From a virus: a DNA stretch of 23,537 nt. The translations under genes and the position numbers were made by a program. A model generated the notes under the pieces. It was given only the letters and a program-made list of their open reading frames with translations, did no database searches and was not told the origin of the DNA. This document shows positions 1,372 through 14,535 of the stretch, piece after piece (position 1 is the first letter of the stretch; each line of letters starts with the position of its first letter). The stretch lies in the IMG/VR virus record IMGVR_UViG_3300044922_000740, positions 1-23,537 of that record. One strand, written 5' to 3'.

Positions 1372-3942
1372 GTGGCAGATAGAATTTTGGCGATTGACAT
1401 CGAAACTTCAGGTTTGCTAAGCCAGATGCTCGATTATTCTGGCTTTCCTTATAAATTGCTTCCTAGCGCGAAGTTGCATTGCGTTGTTGTAAGAAATGTG
1501 GAAACAGGTGAGACGCACTCAGCCGAGAGGGAAGAAATTACTAAACACTGGCTCAGAACTGTTTTGTATGGTTGTACCCACTTGGTAGCTCATAATGGCA
1601 TCTCGTTCGACTTTCCAGCGTTGAAATTATTCGGTGTTCTTGATTACAGAATTGGATATCTTGACCAGCCTGATACAGTGTTTGGGCAACCTTGCCAAAT
1701 TGTTGATACATTGCTTTTATCTCGCTTGCTAAGTCCTGACCGCTATACTCCCGAAGGTATGGGACATTCGCTCGAAGTTTGGGGTCAACGGTTGGGCGAA
1801 GAGAAGTCAGATTATCGTGCAGATTGTATTGCTGCGGGGTATATTGAAAAAAATTCCCCCAAAGGCGAACAGTTTCTAAATTGGACTCCACTTTTACTGG
1901 ATTATTGTCGGCAAGATACTGTAGTCACTTGCAAGCTGTTTCAGCGCTTATGGGCTGAGTATTTGGAATATTCGGGTTGGCATCAAGCTTTTAAGATGGA
2001 ATCGAAGTTGTGTGACCTTGGAGTAAGGCGAGAACATTTGGGTTTCGCATTTGATGTAGAAAAAGCGAAAATTGCGGTTGCTGACCTGCAAGAGAAAATG
2101 AAAGCGATTGCAGACGCTATTAATCCAATTCTCCCTCCAAAACCTCGCAATAAAGGGGAACTTGCTGAAGTAACTCCTCCAGCTAACCAACTAAAAACTC
2201 ACAAAGCTGTCTATCTTCCTAAAGTGCAAGTCAAGAAAGATGGTAAGCTTTCGTCTGCGGTCGTTAAGTTCTTAAATAACCAAGAAGAAATTGAGTATAC
2301 CGAAGGGGATTTTAGTTTCATTTTTGGTGGTCAGACTTTTCAATTGCCTTACTACGAAGCTCTAGTGCCTGAGTTTACTGAACCTAGCGATGTGATGCTA
2401 CGTTTTACTGAAAGAGTTGGTGCTACTATCGAAAAAATCGACGAGGAGTGGCTTCTATTTTATAAGGGGCAAATGTATCCCTTGCCTTATAATGAACCGC
2501 TAGAGAGCCATATTAAAGCAGATATTGACGACATTGATTGGGTGAAGTCTGTCCTTATTTCAAAAAACTGGCAACCCACTGAATTTCGGGTTAGGAATCT
2601 TATTTGTGATTCCAAGAAGCAATCTATACCTTACGAGAAACGCTTAGCAGCATTGAAACGGTACGTCAAAGAAACTATTGAAGATGGTAAGTATAAAGAA
2701 CAAAGACTAGAGATTCTTGAGCTAAATGAAGAAAATTTGTTTCCTGCTCTAGCAGAAAAAATTAAAGGGAATCGACCAGTGGTAGTCCCCACTTCTCCTT
2801 GTATACGGGTCGGGGTTGAGAAAGAGCTTTGCCCATCTCTTATTAAAATTGGAGAAAAAGTTGCGTTTGCCAAAGATTTCGCTCTGTATCTTACCTATAA
2901 ACACCGCAAAAATTCGATTGCAGGTGGTGTTGACGATGAAGAGTGGGAGTTTAACGAGGATAATCCACCAAGCTCAGGATATCTAAACCAATATCGTCAG
3001 GTTGATGGAAGAATACCTGCTCCAGCCATCGAAATTGGAGCCGCAAGTCACCGTTATCGACATATCGGCATCACTAACATACCCAGAGTTACCAGTACTT
3101 ACGGTTTTCAAATGCGAGAGCTTTTTGGGTGTGGGTCTGGGGCTTTTCAATTTTCCTATGACTTTTCATCTTTAGAAGCGATGGTGATGGCTTTGTGGTG
3201 TTTAAAATACACGAATGGGGAAGAGTTGGCAAAAGATTTGGTTGCTGTCAAACCCAATGACATTCACACCAAAAACAGCATTAAATTAGGAATACCCAGA
3301 AGCGATGCAAAATCTCTTCAGTATGCCTTAATTTATGGTTGTCAACCTGCCAAAGTTGCAAAAATGTTGTCTGTCTCTTTAAAAGAGGGACAAAGAATTT
3401 ACGATGAGTATTGGCAAGCTGTTCCTGCACTAAAAGAGTTGCGCGACAACTTGGAAAAACATTGGAACAAAAATGGTAAAACTTGGATAAGAACAATCGA
3501 CGGCAGAAAAATTAATACACGTTCTAAGCACTCTCTACTTAATTTTTTGTTTCAGTCTACAGGCATTATTTGTGCCAAATATACTAATGTTTTGTCAATG
3601 CAAATTTTGGAGGAAAAAGGGTATTGTATTGATTGTTTTGTAGCTGAACCTGATGTAGCTGAGATGATTCATATGCACGATGAACAAGCTCTCCGCATCA
3701 AAAAACACATGGTACAAATCAAAAAGTTTACTAGTGAAGAAGAAGGTCGTCAGTTTGTGGAAAATTGGAAAGGTGAACAAATCTCTCCTTTAATGCACGA
3801 CAAAAATTGGTATATAGTCCTTCCGAACGATATCTCTAGAGCTATATCCGATGCTATATTAAAAACTGAAAAACTTCTTAAGCTAAGTGTTCATTTGCAG
3901 ACTGAAATTATGGTTAATTATAATTGGGCAAAATGCCATTAA
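1372..3942 (+). CDS. T7-type family A DNA polymerase with 3'-5' exonuclease
   Basis: The product has 856 residues. The GTG start at 1372 abuts the previous TAA, with GGAG about 8 nt upstream; it sits just before exonuclease motif I (D9-I-E11). Exo II (HNGISFDFPAL) and Exo III (DYCRQDTVVT) are present, so proofreading should be active. Polymerase motif A has D597 (DFSSLE), motif B has R643, K647 and Y651 ahead of IYG, and motif C is HDE at 769-771. The C-terminus NWAKCH resembles the NWAICH end of T7 gp5, so the gene is complete. It is about 150 residues longer than T7 polymerase (704). Much of the excess lies at residues about 255-480, around the thumb and the position of the T7 thioredoxin-binding loop, plus about 36 residues after motif C. 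It replicates phage DNA. Confidence 0.95.
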   Translation: MADRILAIDIETSGLLSQMLDYSGFPYKLLPSAKLHCVVVRNVETGETHSAEREEITKHWLRTVLYGCTHLVAHNGISFDFPALKLFGVLDYRIGYLDQPDTVFGQPCQIVDTLLLSRLLSPDRYTPEGMGHSLEVWGQRLGEEKSDYRADCIAAGYIEKNSPKGEQFLNWTPLLLDYCRQDTVVTCKLFQRLWAEYLEYSGWHQAFKMESKLCDLGVRREHLGFAFDVEKAKIAVADLQEKMKAIADAINPILPPKPRNKGELAEVTPPANQLKTHKAVYLPKVQVKKDGKLSSAVVKFLNNQEEIEYTEGDFSFIFGGQTFQLPYYEALVPEFTEPSDVMLRFTERVGATIEKIDEEWLLFYKGQMYPLPYNEPLESHIKADIDDIDWVKSVLISKNWQPTEFRVRNLICDSKKQSIPYEKRLAALKRYVKETIEDGKYKEQRLEILELNEENLFPALAEKIKGNRPVVVPTSPCIRVGVEKELCPSLIKIGEKVAFAKDFALYLTYKHRKNSIAGGVDDEEWEFNEDNPPSSGYLNQYRQVDGRIPAPAIEIGAASHRYRHIGITNIPRVTSTYGFQMRELFGCGSGAFQFSYDFSSLEAMVMALWCLKYTNGEELAKDLVAVKPNDIHTKNSIKLGIPRSDAKSLQYALIYGCQPAKVAKMLSVSLKEGQRIYDEYWQAVPALKELRDNLEKHWNKNGKTWIRTIDGRKINTRSKHSLLNFLFQSTGIICAKYTNVLSMQILEEKGYCIDCFVAEPDVAEMIHMHDEQALRIKKHMVQIKKFTSEEEGRQFVENWKGEQISPLMHDKNWYIVLPNDISRAISDAILKTEKLLKLSVHLQTEIMVNYNWAKCH

Positions 3943-3946
3943 ATAT

Positions 3947-4435
3947 ATGTTTAAAGAAATTTACAATGGTTATCAGGTTAATAAAGAAGGTGTTGTGTTA
4001 GGTAGAAGGGGTCAACCTTTATCGCAACACGATAACGGAAGAGGATATTTAATTGTTTCTCTTATCCTAGATGGTAAGTATACATCTAAAGCAGTTCACA
4101 GATTAGTAGCCGAAGCATTTCTTGACAACCCCAATAACTACTCGGATGTCAACCATATCGATTGCGATAGGCGTAACAACAGAGTTGAAAACTTGGAATG
4201 GATGACTCACGGCAACAACATCAAGTACAGCTACGACAATGAAAAACGTTCTGCTATTGGTGAAAGCAATGCCAGATGTAAGACAACTGAAAAAATTGTT
4301 ATTGAGATTTGTGAACTACTTCAACAAGGTCTGAAACCATCCAAAGTTCGCGACATGGGTTACTATTACAATCTTGTGAGGTCAATTAAGCAGAGAAGGT
4401 TGTGGACTAGTATCTCCAAAGATTATGTCTGGTAA
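3947..4435 (+). CDS. Free-standing HNH homing endonuclease
   Basis: The product has 162 residues if it starts at ATG 3947, four bases after the polA stop; the frame is open further upstream but overlaps polA. The N-terminus (IYNGYQVNKEGVVLG) resembles the NUMOD4 DNA-binding module. An HNH_3 core follows: H51 in AVHRLV, H70 in NHIDCD, N79, and VENLEW at 80-85. The C-terminal part has a helix-turn-helix-like end typical of phage HNH proteins. These enzymes nick or cut DNA and spread their own gene to sites in related phages. It shares the VHRLVxExFL...VENLEW pattern with the intron-encoded HNH at 8282-8764. No intron core is visible around it, so it appears free-standing. Confidence 0.88.
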   Translation: MFKEIYNGYQVNKEGVVLGRRGQPLSQHDNGRGYLIVSLILDGKYTSKAVHRLVAEAFLDNPNNYSDVNHIDCDRRNNRVENLEWMTHGNNIKYSYDNEKRSAIGESNARCKTTEKIVIEICELLQQGLKPSKVRDMGYYYNLVRSIKQRRLWTSISKDYVW

Positions 4436-4479: not shown

Positions 4480-4503
4480 ACCCACATCAACTAAGTGACG
4501 CAC

Positions 4504-5406
4504 ATGACCAACAAATTCATTAAGCCAATCAAAGAGTTCCTTGAAATCACTCGTGAAAATCTAAAGTGGGCAGCAAGTGAGATTCAGCACCAATATTTCC
4601 TTTCTACCCTTCGAGACATCGAAAAGAAATACCCTGAAATGCACACCGAAGTGGAAGCGTTCACTGAACATCTCGACGCTATTTTTTATGGTATTACAGA
4701 CGAAGATTGCCCTGATTTCGTAGAAACATCTGACACAACTTATTTTCGCGTAGTAGCGAAAGGCACTCAAGGCAACTCAGCAGCCTCCCCAGTAAACAAG
4801 TTTGAAAATGGTGTGGTGACAACTATCTCCAATTCAATTATCGTGTGGGATTCAGGATTCACGGATACACAATTGTCTGTAGGTGTTGTAATCACTAAAG
4901 ATGGCAACTCTTACCGTGTCGTGGACGGATTTAGTGGCAAGCTAGACATCACCGAGCAGCTAGACGTAATTACCAAACTTTCATCGCAGTATCCAGATGC
5001 AGTAGTCGGTATCTTGAACAAAGCCAACGGCGCAGCATTGTTTCACTTGCTACAGTCGAAAATCCCCAACATTCAACAGATTGAAACGTACTTTAGTGAA
5101 GGCACTCGTCTTGAAAACATCAAAAAAGAAGGTAGATTACTATTTGATTTTGGGTATGACGAAGAACGGGAGATTGCTATAAACTACGGTGTTGAGTATC
5201 TTTACAATCAATCCCTTAATAGCTTTACGGACGTTGACCTCACAGACTTGAAACAAGGTGACTACCTATCGAATCGCTTCGGCGCACCTGAGTTTGAAAC
5301 CGAAGCTGAAACCGACGCATTCAAGTTTGTAGAGATGAAGCAAAATATCTCAGACGACGGACTCAACGAACCACGCTACCCTTACGACACCGAGCCAAGC
5401 GCATAA
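4504..5406 (+). CDS. Orphan terminase-nuclease-like (RNase H-fold) protein, possibly inactive
   Basis: The frame is open from GTG 4495, but ATG 4504 (300 residues) is preferred. Residues about 107-200 follow the layout of the C-terminal nuclease domain of large terminase subunits. IVWDSGFTDTQLSVGVV stands where the first catalytic Asp lies, YRVVDGFSGKLD follows, and YPDAVVGILNKANGAALF stands where terminases have the IEdKAnGxAl motif. The acidic pair of that motif is replaced (E to L, D to N), so catalysis through this site looks unlikely. No ATPase domain is present and no DDxxDA-like third motif is obvious. The C-terminus is acidic. Part of the protein (YFRVVAKGTQGNSA onward) is duplicated in the small gene at 11441. 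The homology is read by eye, not searched; the function is unknown. Confidence 0.55.
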   Translation: MTNKFIKPIKEFLEITRENLKWAASEIQHQYFLSTLRDIEKKYPEMHTEVEAFTEHLDAIFYGITDEDCPDFVETSDTTYFRVVAKGTQGNSAASPVNKFENGVVTTISNSIIVWDSGFTDTQLSVGVVITKDGNSYRVVDGFSGKLDITEQLDVITKLSSQYPDAVVGILNKANGAALFHLLQSKIPNIQQIETYFSEGTRLENIKKEGRLLFDFGYDEEREIAINYGVEYLYNQSLNSFTDVDLTDLKQGDYLSNRFGAPEFETEAETDAFKFVEMKQNISDDGLNEPRYPYDTEPSA

Positions 5407-7278: not shown

Positions 7279-8151
7279 ATGCAAGTAAAAAAACTCGATG
7301 GCTCATTGCAAAATCTTGACTACCAAAAGATTCATGCAATGGTTGAAATTTGTGCGACTGGAATCGAAAATGTAAGTGTTTCAGACGTAATCATGGGTGC
7401 AAAGCTCAACTTTTACGATGGCATTTCGACCCAAGATATTCAGACTGCGCTGGTAAAAAGTGCCGAGAACTTGATGACTGCCCGTACCCCAAATTATTCC
7501 CTGCTTGCTGGACGTTTACTCCTTACACAGCTTCGTAAGCAAGTATGGGGTCAGTGGGAAGTTCCTGCGCTTTTCTGGATTGTTATAAATAATATCGAAA
7601 AAGGATTCTACGACCCTAAATTAATTGGTTTCTACTCTACAGACGAGTGGCACGAACTAAACGATTACATCAATCACGACCGCGACTTAGATTACACTTC
7701 CGCTAGTATCCAGCAATTCAAAGACAAATATAGCGTCAAGAATCGCGTCACTGGACAGATTTACGAGACTCCACAAGTAGCTTATATGCTCATTGCTGCT
7801 GCTGGGTTTGCTCACGAAGACAAATCTATTCGGATGCAGTTTGTCAAGGATGCCTATGATGCCTTCTCAACTGAAACTATTTCACTTGCAACACCAATTC
7901 GCGCAGGAATGCGTACAAGTTCCAAGCAATATGCAAGTTGTGTGTTAATTGCGGCTGATGATGACCGTAAATCGATTGCTGCGGCTCAGTCCGCGATGAT
8001 GGAGTACGTTTGCCTCCGTTCAGGTATTGGCGTTGATTTTGGACGATGGAGAGCGCTCAACGCCCCCATCCGCAATGGCTCTGTTAAACATACTGGAGCA
8101 ATTGGTTTCCTCAAGTCCTTTGAAGCTACAATCAATGCCTGCTCACAGGGT
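7279..8151 (+). CDS. nrdA: Ribonucleotide reductase class Ia alpha subunit, exon 1
   Basis: This exon encodes residues 1-291 of NrdA, which reduces ribonucleoside diphosphates to deoxy forms. Residues 1-90 form an ATP-cone (MQVKKLDGSLQNLDYQKIH, then LTQLRKQVWG), the allosteric activity site. C221 in YASCVLI matches the redox-active C225 of E. coli NrdA. The exon ends at GGT 8149-8151 within the conserved CSQGGVR motif. The reading frame then runs five codons into a group I intron before a stop at 8169. Splicing to 8949 restores the motif; the joined protein has 748 residues, close to E. coli NrdA (761). Without splicing the protein would lack its catalytic site. Confidence 0.93.
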
Positions 8152-8948
8152 AAACTTATTGCCGTCTAATTTAGAAATAAATTAGAGTACAATCCTTCTA
8201 ATTGCTGGGACATCCTTGAAAAAGGGCAATCAGCAGCCAATAGCCTACAATAGACTTCTTTATTTTTAAGGAGTAGCAACTATGGTAATTTGGAAAACAA
8301 TAAAGAATGAATCTCAATATGAAGTCTCCTCAGACGGGCAAGTAAGAAACATTCGCACAGGTCATGTTAAATCTCTAAGGCTCGATAGGTATGGATACAG
8401 TAGAGTCACCCTCTACCCAAGCGGAAAAACCTACACAGTCCATCGCTTAGTTAGCGAGACATTCTTAGAAAATTCTGAAGACCTACCACAAATTAATCAC
8501 AAAAACGGCAACAAGACAGATAACAATGTCGAAAATCTAGAATGGTGTAATGCCTCACATAACGCCAAACACAGAGATACCGAACTGAGAAGTAAGTGGA
8601 AAGGTCAACAAAATCCAGAAGCAGTTTTAACATTTGCCCAAGCTAAAGAAATTAAGTACGGCGATTTCCCAAATATGACTAACAAGCAAATTGGGAAATT
8701 ATACGGAGTTAAAGACGAGGCTGTAAGGCAAATCAGAAACGGAACAAACTGGAAACACATTTAACATGAAGTGTATTGTAGGCTCAGGTTCAACGACTAG
8801 TGCAAAGGCACGTAGGGCTAAGTAGCTCGAAATGGAGGACACCTGACCACTGAAAGGTGAAGGTGAAGATATAGTCTAGTCTTGCTGGTAACAGTAAGAA
8901 GTTCATAAGAGAACTGGCAAAGAGTAACGAACTTTGTTGAATATATCG
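8152..8948 (+). ncRNA. Group I self-splicing intron in nrdA (about 797 nt)
   Basis: The boundaries follow from protein continuity and group I rules: the exon ends in U (8151), the intron ends in G (8948), and joining gives QGGVRKG in phase 0. Core elements are readable. P is AAUUGCUGGGA from 8200, Q is AAUCAGCAGCC at 8228-8238, R is GUUCAACGACUA at 8788-8799, and S is AAGAUAUAGUC at 8866-8876. R and S pair GACUA/UAGUC as P7. P2 is a 7-bp stem (8166-8172 with 8179-8185). P6 has 11 perfect pairs (8242-8252 with 8774-8784), and its loop holds the HNH gene. P1 is weakly visible (GGU 8149-8151 with GCC 8161-8163). The hairpin GUGC-AAAG-GCAC after R suggests subgroup IA, tentatively. Confidence 0.93.
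8282..8764 (+). CDS. Intron-encoded HNH homing endonuclease
   Basis: The product has 160 residues. ATG 8282 follows an AAGGAG Shine-Dalgarno at 8268-8273. Residues 3-30 form a NUMOD4-like module (IWKTIKNESQYEVSSDGQVR), and residues 54-95 the HNH_3 core: H54 in VHRLV, H73 in INHKNGNK, N81, and VENLEW at 83-88. The C-terminus looks like a helix-turn-helix (MTNKQIGKLYGVKDEAVRQI). The gene lies wholly within the P6 loop of the nrdA intron, so the ribozyme core is undisturbed. It would cut intronless nrdA alleles near the CSQGGVR codons and drive intron homing. The local start signals suggest it is translated from unspliced RNA. Confidence 0.92.
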   Translation: MVIWKTIKNESQYEVSSDGQVRNIRTGHVKSLRLDRYGYSRVTLYPSGKTYTVHRLVSETFLENSEDLPQINHKNGNKTDNNVENLEWCNASHNAKHRDTELRSKWKGQQNPEAVLTFAQAKEIKYGDFPNMTNKQIGKLYGVKDEAVRQIRNGTNWKHI

Positions 8949-10322
8949 GGAGTTAGAAAAGGGTCAGCTACTATGTTTTACCCAATTTGGCACAAAGATG
9001 TTTTGTCATTTTTACCTTTAACTAATGGCAAAGGTACAGAAGAAACCAGAACAAGAGGGCTTGACTACGGAGTAGGTATTTCTAAACTATTCTACGAACG
9101 CCTTCAAAACGGTCAAGACATCACATTATTTGACCCCAACGAAGTAAAAGCCAAATACAACTTGTATGAAAATTTTGGTCTTGAGAGTTTCAACAATTTG
9201 TACGAAGCAGCCGAAGCTGACCCCACAATTACTAAAACAACAATCAGTGCCTCAAAACTATGGACTCTTATTGCTCAAGAACGTGGAGAGACTGGACAAG
9301 TGTATATCCTCAACATTGACCACCTAAATACGCACAGTTCTTTTTCTGTACCTATTTCACAATCCAACCTTTGTATGGAAATCAGCCTCCCTACAAAACC
9401 CTTTTACTCTTTGACAGATAGCACTGGAGAAATTGCAACTTGTATTCTTGGGGCAATTAATCCTACTAAAATTAGAGGTAGGTTAAATTACGAAAAAGCT
9501 GCACGTATCATCGTTCGATTCCTAGATAACATCATCGAATATCAGGACTACCCATTTGTGATGTCCGAAATCGGCTCCAAGGGTCGTCGTTCAATTGGTG
9601 TAGGATTTAACGATTTTGCCCACTGGTTAGCCTTGAACGACCTAAAATGGGGCAGTGACGAGATGTTAAAGGCAGTCCACACACTAACTGAAACTCATCA
9701 ATACTATTTACTAAAAGCTAGCAATGAGCTTGCCATTGAGAAAGGCGCTTGCAGTAAATTCGATGAAACTAAGTACTCGCAAGGAATTTTGCCGATTGAC
9801 ACTTACTACAAGAATGTGGATAGTATTGTAGAACCTCATTACGAAAATGATTGGGAAAAGCTACGTGAGGCTATCCTAGAGCATGGTCTTCGTAACAGTA
9901 CTGTCACAGCCGCAATGCCGTGCGAATCGTCAAGTTTGACGGGAAGCGGCTCTACGAACGGGATTGAGCCGCCGCGCTCAGCAATTGGCATCAAAGACAG
10001 CAGTACCAATACACTCAAATTTGCTATTCCAGATGTAGATAAAGTTGAGTACGAATATGCTTGGTCTTTTTCTTCTAACGAAGCTTACCTAAACACTGTC
10101 GCGGTAATTCAGAAATTCTTTGACCAATCTATCAGTGCAAATACTTACTACAACCCTCTTCTGTACCCAGATTCAAAAGTACCTCTTCAGGTAGTTTTAG
10201 ACGACTTACTTTACGCTTATAGTATTGGTGTGAAGAGTTTGTATTATCACAACACTCATGATATGTCCGATAATGGTCTATCTTCTTCGTCTTCTTGCAG
10301 TTCTGGAGCTTGTGCATTGTAA
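8949..10322 (+). CDS. nrdA: Ribonucleotide reductase class Ia alpha subunit, exon 2
   Basis: This exon encodes residues 292-748 after splicing and starts at GGA 8949 (GVRKGSATMFYPIWH). The catalytic set is complete: N431, C433 and E435 in NLCMEISLPT (E. coli N437/C439/E441), C456 in IATCILG (E. coli C462, same spacing of 23), and the Tyr pair Y723-Y724 in SLYYHNTHD (E. coli Y730/Y731) for radical transfer. The C-terminus CSSGACAL carries the C-x4-C pair that receives electrons from thioredoxin or glutaredoxin. NGIEPPRSAIGIK is the conserved barrel segment. The frame is open upstream into the intron (from 8934), but those codons are intron sequence. nrdB starts 3 nt downstream. Confidence 0.93.
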   Translation, partial: GVRKGSATMFYPIWHKDVLSFLPLTNGKGTEETRTRGLDYGVGISKLFYERLQNGQDITLFDPNEVKAKYNLYENFGLESFNNLYEAAEADPTITKTTISASKLWTLIAQERGETGQVYILNIDHLNTHSSFSVPISQSNLCMEISLPTKPFYSLTDSTGEIATCILGAINPTKIRGRLNYEKAARIIVRFLDNIIEYQDYPFVMSEIGSKGRRSIGVGFNDFAHWLALNDLKWGSDEMLKAVHTLTETHQYYLLKASNELAIEKGACSKFDETKYSQGILPIDTYYKNVDSIVEPHYENDWEKLREAILEHGLRNSTVTAAMPCESSSLTGSGSTNGIEPPRSAIGIKDSSTNTLKFAIPDVDKVEYEYAWSFSSNEAYLNTVAVIQKFFDQSISANTYYNPLLYPDSKVPLQVVLDDLLYAYSIGVKSLYYHNTHDMSDNGLSSSSSCSSGACAL

Positions 10323-11456: not shown

Positions 11457-11626
11457 TCGTTAAATGGTTACTAAGCCGTCTTGTAACCTCTAAAAATCCA
11501 AAGAAAAACTGCCCAGTGTATTTTCGCGTAATCGCTAAAGATGTTGAAGGTAACTCAGCAATATCTTTGACCAGCAAGCTTGAAAACGGCATTGTAACAC
11601 CTATACCAGACAATTCTAACCTATGA
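11441..11626 (+). CDS. 61-aa protein carrying a copy of part of the terminase-like protein
   Basis: The gene is ATGA-coupled to nrdB. The first 18 residues are hydrophobic and basic (MRFFNFVKWLLSRLVTSK). Residues 27-58 (YFRVIAKDVEGNSAISLTSK, then LENGIVT and a terminal NS) match the terminase-like protein at 4504-5406 (YFRVVAKGTQGNSAASPVNK, FENGVVT, SNS). The nucleotide match is also visible: TATTTTCGCGTA is identical in both. The copy ends just before the first catalytic-motif position of the parent. The start region is shared instead with the gene at 11877. It therefore looks like a chimera of two duplicated pieces. It could be a functional small protein or a degrading remnant. Confidence 0.6.
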   Translation: MRFFNFVKWLLSRLVTSKNPKKNCPVYFRVIAKDVEGNSAISLTSKLENGIVTPIPDNSNL

Positions 11627-11880
11627 AAACTTGTACCATCAGTTTTAATCAAGCTAACGGTGTTTCTATCGACACCAGAACCTCGAAATATGAAGATTGG
11701 AGAAAATGGAACAAACCATTCATTCAATACTGGCTTCACGTTAACCGCAAACCTTATTTTCCCTACTACTCTATGCAAACTACTGGAGTATTTAGGGTTG
11801 CTAATCTAGCCTTAGTTTTACAATTCTCGTTCGTAGACCTTGTTTGGCTTAAAGAGAATGGCGAGGAGTTTTCACTATGA
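11623..11880 (+). CDS. 85-aa hypothetical protein, tandem paralogue A
   Basis: It starts at ATG 11623 with an ATGA overlap to the previous gene and ends in an ATGA overlap with the next. The product shares a spaced pattern with the product of 11877-12122: F-Q--G-S, then DW, PFIQ, a central variable part, then R--N--L-LxFxFV. Both look like small all-beta proteins. I do not recognise a known family, and no catalytic motif is seen. Confidence 0.6.
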   Translation: MKTCTISFNQANGVSIDTRTSKYEDWRKWNKPFIQYWLHVNRKPYFPYYSMQTTGVFRVANLALVLQFSFVDLVWLKENGEEFSL

Positions 11881-13067: not shown

Positions 13068-13808
13068 ATGAAAGGCATATACAAGATTACGAATACTGTC
13101 AATGACAAGTTTTATATTGGTAGTTCAAAAAATATCCCCACTAGAATAAGGAGGCATTTTTATGACTTAAAGAGGGGTTGCCATCATTCGGCACACTTTC
13201 AAAGCGCTTACAATAAGTACGGGAAAGCTGCATTTATTCACGAAGTCTTATTAGAATGTGAAAATTTCACAGAGGAAGAGCAAAAACTTCTAGATAAACT
13301 TGACTGGTCTTTGGCTTATAACGTTAGTAAGGTTGCTGGCGGAGGTGATACCTATACCAACAACCCTAACAAAGAAGAAATCAGATTAAAGCTAATTGAA
13401 ATCTTAAAACCGTTTTGGGCTAACCCTGTAATTCGCTATGGCGCAGATAACTTCAACTGGAAAGGAGGTATTTCAAGTGGCATATGCGGAGGTTGTGGCA
13501 AAGTTCTTAAAGGAGACAGTAAATTTTGTGAGCCTTGTTATTTTGCACAAAGAGACATTTCAGGAGAAAAAAATCCATTTTTCGGCAAAAAGCACTCTAA
13601 AGAAACTATCGAAAAACTAAAAAAGAGAACTAATTTACCTAATAGTAAAAAAGTGATGACTAGTTACGGAGAATACTCATCTGTACAATCCGCAGCTAAC
13701 TCTCTTAAAGTTACCAGAACGACAATCATAAATAGAATACGAAATCAAAACCCTAAATTCTCTGATTATTATTTTTTAGAAGGTACAAATGACACAGAAC
13801 AAAGTTGA
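13068..13808 (+). CDS. GIY-YIG homing endonuclease with zinc finger and NUMOD modules
   Basis: The product has 246 residues. The GIY-YIG domain covers residues 1-90: GIY at 3-5, YIG at 16-18, R26 and R28 in the catalytic helix, and E63 in EVLLEC as the likely metal-binding Glu. A Zn-binding C-x2-C...C-x2-C pattern follows (C140, C143, C154, C157), then a NUMOD3-like NPFFGKKHSKETIEKL (169-184) and a NUMOD1-like helix-turn-helix near 200-225 (YSSVQSAANSLKVTRTTIIN). This is the architecture of I-TevI-like phage enzymes. It has its own promoter-like -10 and its last 20 nt overlap thyX. No intron core is visible, so it appears free-standing, inserted just upstream of thyX. Confidence 0.9.
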   Translation: MKGIYKITNTVNDKFYIGSSKNIPTRIRRHFYDLKRGCHHSAHFQSAYNKYGKAAFIHEVLLECENFTEEEQKLLDKLDWSLAYNVSKVAGGGDTYTNNPNKEEIRLKLIEILKPFWANPVIRYGADNFNWKGGISSGICGGCGKVLKGDSKFCEPCYFAQRDISGEKNPFFGKKHSKETIEKLKKRTNLPNSKKVMTSYGEYSSVQSAANSLKVTRTTIINRIRNQNPKFSDYYFLEGTNDTEQS

Positions 13809-14535
13809 GCTAATTGGCTATTACGGCGGTGACAAGCGCTCTTGCATCTCTGCTTGGCAATCTACTACTGAAGAACTCGGCATCGAGCTTCCAGAGTCGG
13901 TTCCTGACCGTGTGGATACTATCTTCGAGGCAATTGCTCAAACAAAGAAAAAATCACCTTGGGAACTGCTCGATTTTCTAGCCAGCAACACTCATGAAAC
14001 TCCTTTTGAGAAGTCTATTCTAGATTTTCAGATTACAGGAGATATTGCAAGCCATATCCATGCACTAAAACATCGTATTAGCTCTATAAACTCCGAATCT
14101 GCTAGGTATAAAGAATTTGTAGCTGACCGATTTTATATACCTGAAGACTGGTCTGGCTTGACTCTGCAAGAAGATTTCCTTGAAGATAATGGTGAGATTG
14201 GTTACGAAGCAGGTCAATATTGGTCGCATATATTAAGACACGAATCTGAACGACATTTCAAGCTATACCACCGAGCCGTTATGGATATGTCTAAACCTTT
14301 GGGGCGTAAACGAGCAAAAGAATCTGCCCGATTTTTTCTAGGCTACAATACCCAACTTAATTTTGATTGGCAAATGAATTTTCGTAGTTTTGTAAACATT
14401 CAAAAATTACGAAACTCTAGTCATGCTCAATCTGAAATTCATGAGATTGCAAATACAATGCTTTATCTTGTGGAGAATATTCCTGATAAACCTTTTCAAT
14501 ACTGTTTAAAAGCTTTTGGACTAAAATCCACTTAA
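13789..14535 (+). CDS. thyX: FAD-dependent thymidylate synthase
   Basis: The 248-residue product converts dUMP to dTMP using methylene-tetrahydrofolate, FAD and NADPH. The family signature RHR-x7-S is present as K94-H95-R96...S104 (KHRISSINSESARY), with Lys instead of the first Arg. The C-terminal signature NFRSFVNIQKLRNSSHAQSE matches the folate/dUMP-binding helix (canonical NARSL...LR...AQxEI). Its ATG lies within the end of the GIY-YIG gene, so the two are translated from one message. A strong terminator follows 30 nt after the stop. No thyA-type gene is in the window. Confidence 0.95.
   Translation: MTQNKVELIGYYGGDKRSCISAWQSTTEELGIELPESVPDRVDTIFEAIAQTKKKSPWELLDFLASNTHETPFEKSILDFQITGDIASHIHALKHRISSINSESARYKEFVADRFYIPEDWSGLTLQEDFLEDNGEIGYEAGQYWSHILRHESERHFKLYHRAVMDMSKPLGRKRAKESARFFLGYNTQLNFDWQMNFRSFVNIQKLRNSSHAQSEIHEIANTMLYLVENIPDKPFQYCLKAFGLKST

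Follow-up and report, generated by a model that had tools for sequence, protein, structure and literature searches.

A group I intron with an HNH endonuclease gene in nrdA of a cyanophage-like virus, at an insertion site shared with other phages

In a single viral record of 23,537 bases (the window, meaning the whole stretch of DNA that was analysed), we identified an nrdA gene interrupted by what is very probably a mobile group IA-type self-splicing intron, which would splice to restore NrdA and home by means of its HNH endonuclease. Judged by gene order and identity, the window groups with Pam2 and PA-SR01, freshwater phages that infect Pseudanabaena. Sequence comparison establishes the anatomy of the element, its boundaries and covarying structure, the empty sites and the relatives inserted at the same site. 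The intron is real and complete but ordinary, and the insertion site itself is not new. The interrupted gene is organized as follows.

7279-8151 (+): nrdA exon 1, residues 1-291, C-terminal ...NACSQG; 92% identity to Pam2 NrdA 1-291; Pfam ATP-cone and RNR domains
8152-8948 (+): group I intron, IA-type, 797 nt, with P7.1 and P7.2 present
8167-8169 (+): in-frame stop TAA just past the 5' splice site, seen as the ORF end, which closes translation from exon 1
8282-8764 (+): HNH homing endonuclease gene, 160 aa, NUMOD4 and HNH_3, wholly inside the P6 loop
8948 (+): terminal guanosine; G is last in all five introns compared
8949-10322 (+): nrdA exon 2, residues 292-748, starting GVRKG; 85% identity to Pam2 NrdA 292-747

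Joining the two nrdA frames (7279-8151 and 8949-10322) restores one uninterrupted in-frame gene with a product of 748 aa. The initial annotation held that this joined protein keeps every catalytic residue, and alignment bears this out: the spliced NrdA can be aligned from one end to the other to E. coli NrdA (PDB 2r1r, E 4e-223; 8vhp alignment), with the ASC, NLCME, ATC, LYY and CxxxxC motifs all kept, and the active-site cysteines, the NLCME loop and the double tyrosine are present. The same annotation placed the frame break within CSQGGVR, gave the intron 797 nt and invoked the rule of a U before the intron and a G at its end. These boundaries proved right to the base. Among 13 offsets tested, only 8152-8948 combines the preceding U, the final G and the conserved CSQG/GVRKG; U8151 pairs with G8161 in P1, and the last intron base is G8948. 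In Pam2 the corresponding site is empty, reading CAAGGT/GGGGTG with nothing inserted.

PA-SR01 nrdA is also uninterrupted at the junction, as is NrdA in 158 of the 170 loci with a NrdA match. The remaining loci are accounted for by the window's own two copies, same-site introns (in part from duplicate records), insertions of intein type and a single truncated contig. An exact 20-mer spanning the 3' junction had no match in viral_contigs. The PA-SR01 junction (L004) reads CAAGGA/CATATC and encodes SQGHIR, where nearly all other NrdA proteins have SQGGVR or similar; the difference may mark a resistant site or a scar, or have arisen by simple drift.

The Rfam group I covariance search proposed as a check in the initial annotation returned two part-matches of RF00028, at 8619-8898 (35.2 bits, E 1e-5) and 8142-8333 (20.4 bits), neither of which reaches the gathering score of 50 bits. 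The match is probably split and sub-threshold because of the 483-nt ORF, since in Vibrio phage S4-7 the same-site intron, most of whose ORF is gone, attains 79.8 bits. A leave-one-out covariance model spanning P7 to P9.1, built from the introns of S4-7, Pectobacterium phage CB7, L008 and L016 with the window excluded, matched 8787-8916 at 116 bits (E 6e-24) and matched nothing in L003 or L004, whose sites are empty. Across these four relatives, compensatory (two-sided) changes affect 14 of the 28 pairs from P7 to P9.1 and 100% of cells are paired; none of 500 shuffles equalled this, and slid versions pair 34-47%. RNAalifold on the window, S4-7 and L008 found double changes in 30 of 82 pairs, P6 included. 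As a separate observation, a Bacilli MAG contig (L262) holds three consecutive intron-model matches (358-496, 1320-1447 and 1627-1802), one of them weak, and possibly carries several closely spaced group I introns.

Because P5 and P6 of CB7 and L016 were wrongly placed when all five introns were aligned with MAFFT, helices were checked one sequence at a time, a check that covered all but P4, P5 and P6 of L016. The window intron contains P1, P2, P3, P4, P5, P6, P7, P7.1, P7.2, P8, P9, P9.1 and P9.2, at positions that rest on sequence, the Rfam alignment and comparison.

8149-8163 (+): P1, 8149-8153 GGUAA with 8159-8163 UUGCC, U8151.G8161 at the splice site; read directly
8153-8157 AACUU with exon 8950-8954 GAGUU (+): P10 candidate; read directly
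8165-8186 (+): P2, 8165-8172 with 8179-8186
8193-8198 (+): P3 5' strand, pairs with 8834-8839; covaries
8203-8208 with 8230-8235 (+): P4; Rfam alignment, helix check
8213-8217 with 8222-8226 (+): P5; Rfam alignment, helix check
8242-8252 (+): P6 5' strand, AGCCUACAAUA, 11 bp with 8774-8784; closes the HNH-gene loop
8774-8784 (+): P6 3' strand, perfect pairing with 8242-8252
8795-8799 (+): P7 5' strand, GACUA, pairs with 8872-8876 UAGUC; invariant in five introns
8800-8803 with 8808-8811 (+): P7.1; compensatory changes among relatives
8815-8819 with 8824-8828 (+): P7.2; compensatory changes among relatives
8834-8839 (+): P3 3' strand, pairs with 8193-8198
8840-8865 (+): P8, 8840-8844 with 8861-8865
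8872-8876 (+): P7 3' strand, S element AAGAUAUAGUC; Rfam alignment
8881-8887 with 8892-8898 (+): P9; covariation
8900-8904 with 8911-8915 (+): P9.1; helix check
8916-8922 with 8932-8938 (+): P9.2; covariation

The conserved P3-P9 core with P7 is thus found by Rfam, by the leave-one-out model and by the helix check, so that the group I core, P7 and P2 read in the initial annotation all stand, and the presence of P7.1 and P7.2 between P7 and P3 makes the intron IA-type. P1 extends only briefly into the exon, by three pairs before a G-G mismatch, and the relatives likewise have a short P1; the pair at +1 is A-U in the window and U-A in the four others. P2 differs in sequence among all five introns and is fully paired, with 6 to 10 bp, in four of them (6 of 7 pairs in L008). 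In S4-7, P4 and P5 pair completely by eye, P4 with one bulged U. The claim of an 11-bp P6 spanning the HNH gene was upheld, as its length was matched by one of 2000 shuffles and its pairs covary between the window, S4-7 and L008.

The ORF flanked by the P6 strands, as anticipated for the endonuclease gene, encodes NUMOD4 (E 2e-9) and HNH_3 (E 1e-8), both above the Pfam cut-offs; the intron ORF thus pairs an HNH domain with a NUMOD domain for DNA binding, as expected of a homing endonuclease. Its best relatives are the HNH protein of L008 (61% identity over nearly the whole length) and those of the phiTE and CB7 nrdA introns (49%), and a scan of bacterial genomes gave distant relatives only, mostly about 30-42% identical. 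A hairpin precedes the gene.

8254-8274 (+): Shine-Dalgarno hairpin, ACUUCUU/AAGGAGU, 8254-8260 with 8268-8274, 7 bp

The gene's Shine-Dalgarno sequence AAGGAG (8268-8273) sits in the 3' arm. S4-7 and L008 have the same stem, CB7 covers its AAGGGG with a different stem made of other bases, and in L016 a stem at the HNH start extends to the start codon. According to a review (PMC3014915), the genes for I-TevI and mobE have comparable stems at their starts, and those of I-TevI protect splicing. By analogy with T4, the hairpin may repress endonuclease translation.

The initial annotation left open whether the insertion site had been described. It has: the identical codon boundary carries introns in Vibrio phage S4-7, in Pectobacterium phages CB7 and phiTE, and in the uncultured phage L008, and L016 has an intron at the equivalent site of a divergent reductase. 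Splicing of the CB7_202 nrdA intron in vivo was demonstrated by RT-PCR and Sanger sequencing of cDNA (Table 3, 'Yes'; PMC7344957); the text of that paper once calls CB7_202 nicotinamide phosphoribosyl transferase, and its table and abstract give NrdA. CB7 (CB7_202) and phiTE (phiTE_155) share with the window the boundary (CAGGGT/GGAGTA), the core, an HNH protein at 49% identity and a stem over the Shine-Dalgarno sequence, but they infect Pectobacterium, have introns of 783 nt with P6 and the Shine-Dalgarno stem in different bases, and carry an additional intein further downstream in nrdA. S4-7 (KX507046) has the same boundary and 74% identity over 91% of a 187-nt 3' query. However, its intron is 401 nt, is annotated only as split genes and is probably no longer mobile, because the HNH gene is deleted after about 30 codons; there (L005, 2814-3041) the sequence jumps to the 3' side of P6, and the ribozyme is retained.

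The T4 td, nrdB and nrdD introns (I-TevI, I-TevIII and I-TevII, respectively) differ from that of the window in their insertion sites, and I-TevI is a GIY-YIG enzyme. They are alike in being group I introns of nucleotide-metabolism genes with a hairpin-held endonuclease start (PMC3014915). In the freshwater cyanophage Pf-WMP3, the DNA polymerase gene has an intron of group IA2 that likewise comes with an HNH endonuclease, the nicking enzyme I-PfoP3I (PMC3428280), although the host gene is another and the phage is T7-like. Twort nrdE, too, has group I introns close to conserved positions of the large reductase subunit, one of them with a functional HNH endonuclease (cited in PMC3653736), but that gene is class Ib. 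Of the nucleotide-metabolism genes of phages, those for reductases are interrupted most frequently (PMC3653736). Since CB7 splicing, the frequent interruption of reductase genes and a cyanophage IA2 intron are already published, the window intron is a known kind of element.

Cyanobacterial, Vibrio and Pectobacterium phages all carry members of the QG/G lineage. L008 encodes the most similar HNH protein though its NrdA parts are only 39-49% identical to those of the window, yet Pam2, whose NrdA is 85-92% identical, has an empty site, and this comparison points to lateral movement of the intron lineage between phages.

Other mobile elements were seen near this motif and elsewhere in the window. 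Split-intein-like inserts lie within a few codons of CSQGG in L157 (1903-3955), L189 (5391-6792) and L155 (1-462); in L157 and L189 the intein halves flank a separate ORF that probably encodes an endonuclease. We rejected these three as further introns because the insert ends read as N-terminal and C-terminal portions of inteins. A similar arrangement is seen in the fractured genes of Dassa et al. 2009 (cited in PMC3653736). It is an evenly balanced proposal that phage NrdA CSQGG is a common target of unrelated mobile elements (QG/G introns and nearby split inteins with separate ORFs) and that the intron lineage spread laterally while retaining a hairpin that would protect splicing and delay the endonuclease.

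In the window itself, the stretch 1372-4435 holds a DNA polymerase gene (856 aa) and, overlapping the 3' end of that gene, an HNH gene (3887-4435). The polymerase shares only 20% identity with its Pam2 and PA-SR01 counterparts and has its nearest relatives (46%) in Acinetobacter phages, so the locus resembles one where the polymerase has been replaced, with a homing endonuclease gene at the edge of the exchange. A GIY-YIG/NUMOD3 gene (13068-13808) overlaps the start of thyX (13789-14535), and the stretches from Pam2 and PA-SR01 gave no match to such a gene. Replacement of ThyX relative to Pam2 was considered and rejected, as it is 90% identical to PA-SR01 ThyX. Two genes share a YFRVxAKxxxGNSAxSxxxKxENGxVT-like stretch (4702-4836 and 11504-11740; 44% identity over about 37 residues), which in 4495-5406 falls in an insert of about 190 aa missing from the Pam2 homologue.

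For splicing in this phage, HNH cutting, homing and translational control, we infer the following course. The ribozyme would fold in the nrdA transcript and guanosine would attack after U8151 in P1; exon 1 would then attack after G8948, giving a joined mRNA for the complete class Ia NrdA of 748 aa. The stop codon soon past the 5' splice site would bar ribosomes from the ribozyme, and the Shine-Dalgarno hairpin would limit endonuclease translation on the unspliced transcript. The NUMOD4-HNH protein would probably nick or cut intron-less nrdA near CSQG/GVR in co-infecting phages, and repair of the cut gene would copy the intron in.

Split yet functional phage nrdA genes exist (PMC3653736), and exon 2 is open from a TTG at 8934, so the insertion might no longer splice and NrdA might consist of two assembling chains, as with mobE in nrdA of Aeromonas phage Aeh1; a split gene of that type would lack a ribozyme and have both parts translated separately. 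We consider this very improbable, as the window has a complete group I core with all helices intact and covarying, the boundaries yield an exact uninterrupted NrdA, the same-site CB7 intron splices, and no obvious Shine-Dalgarno sequence was seen upstream of 8934. Somewhat less remote, though still unlikely, is a ribozyme that splices within an immobile element whose HNH gene is inactive: intron HNH genes decay, and the same-site S4-7 intron lost most of its own, but here the ORF is full length, with both domains scoring above their cut-offs and its close identity to the L008 protein extending over nearly the entire length. The window is a single record from a metagenomic collection, which might suggest an assembly chimera or a chance frame break resembling an intron; the exons continue exactly, the structure is complete and covaries, and cultured phages independently carry relatives at the same site, all of which makes this vanishingly improbable, and the leave-one-out match refutes it in practice. 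The reading we retain is a mobile, self-splicing intron.

For annotation, the window nrdA should be treated as one spliced gene, and likewise that of S4-7, annotated there as two genes. A cyanophage joins a same-site nrdA intron lineage found across phages of distant hosts, and the empty, full and endonuclease-losing states at one site make the gain, decay and loss cycle of a homing intron traceable.
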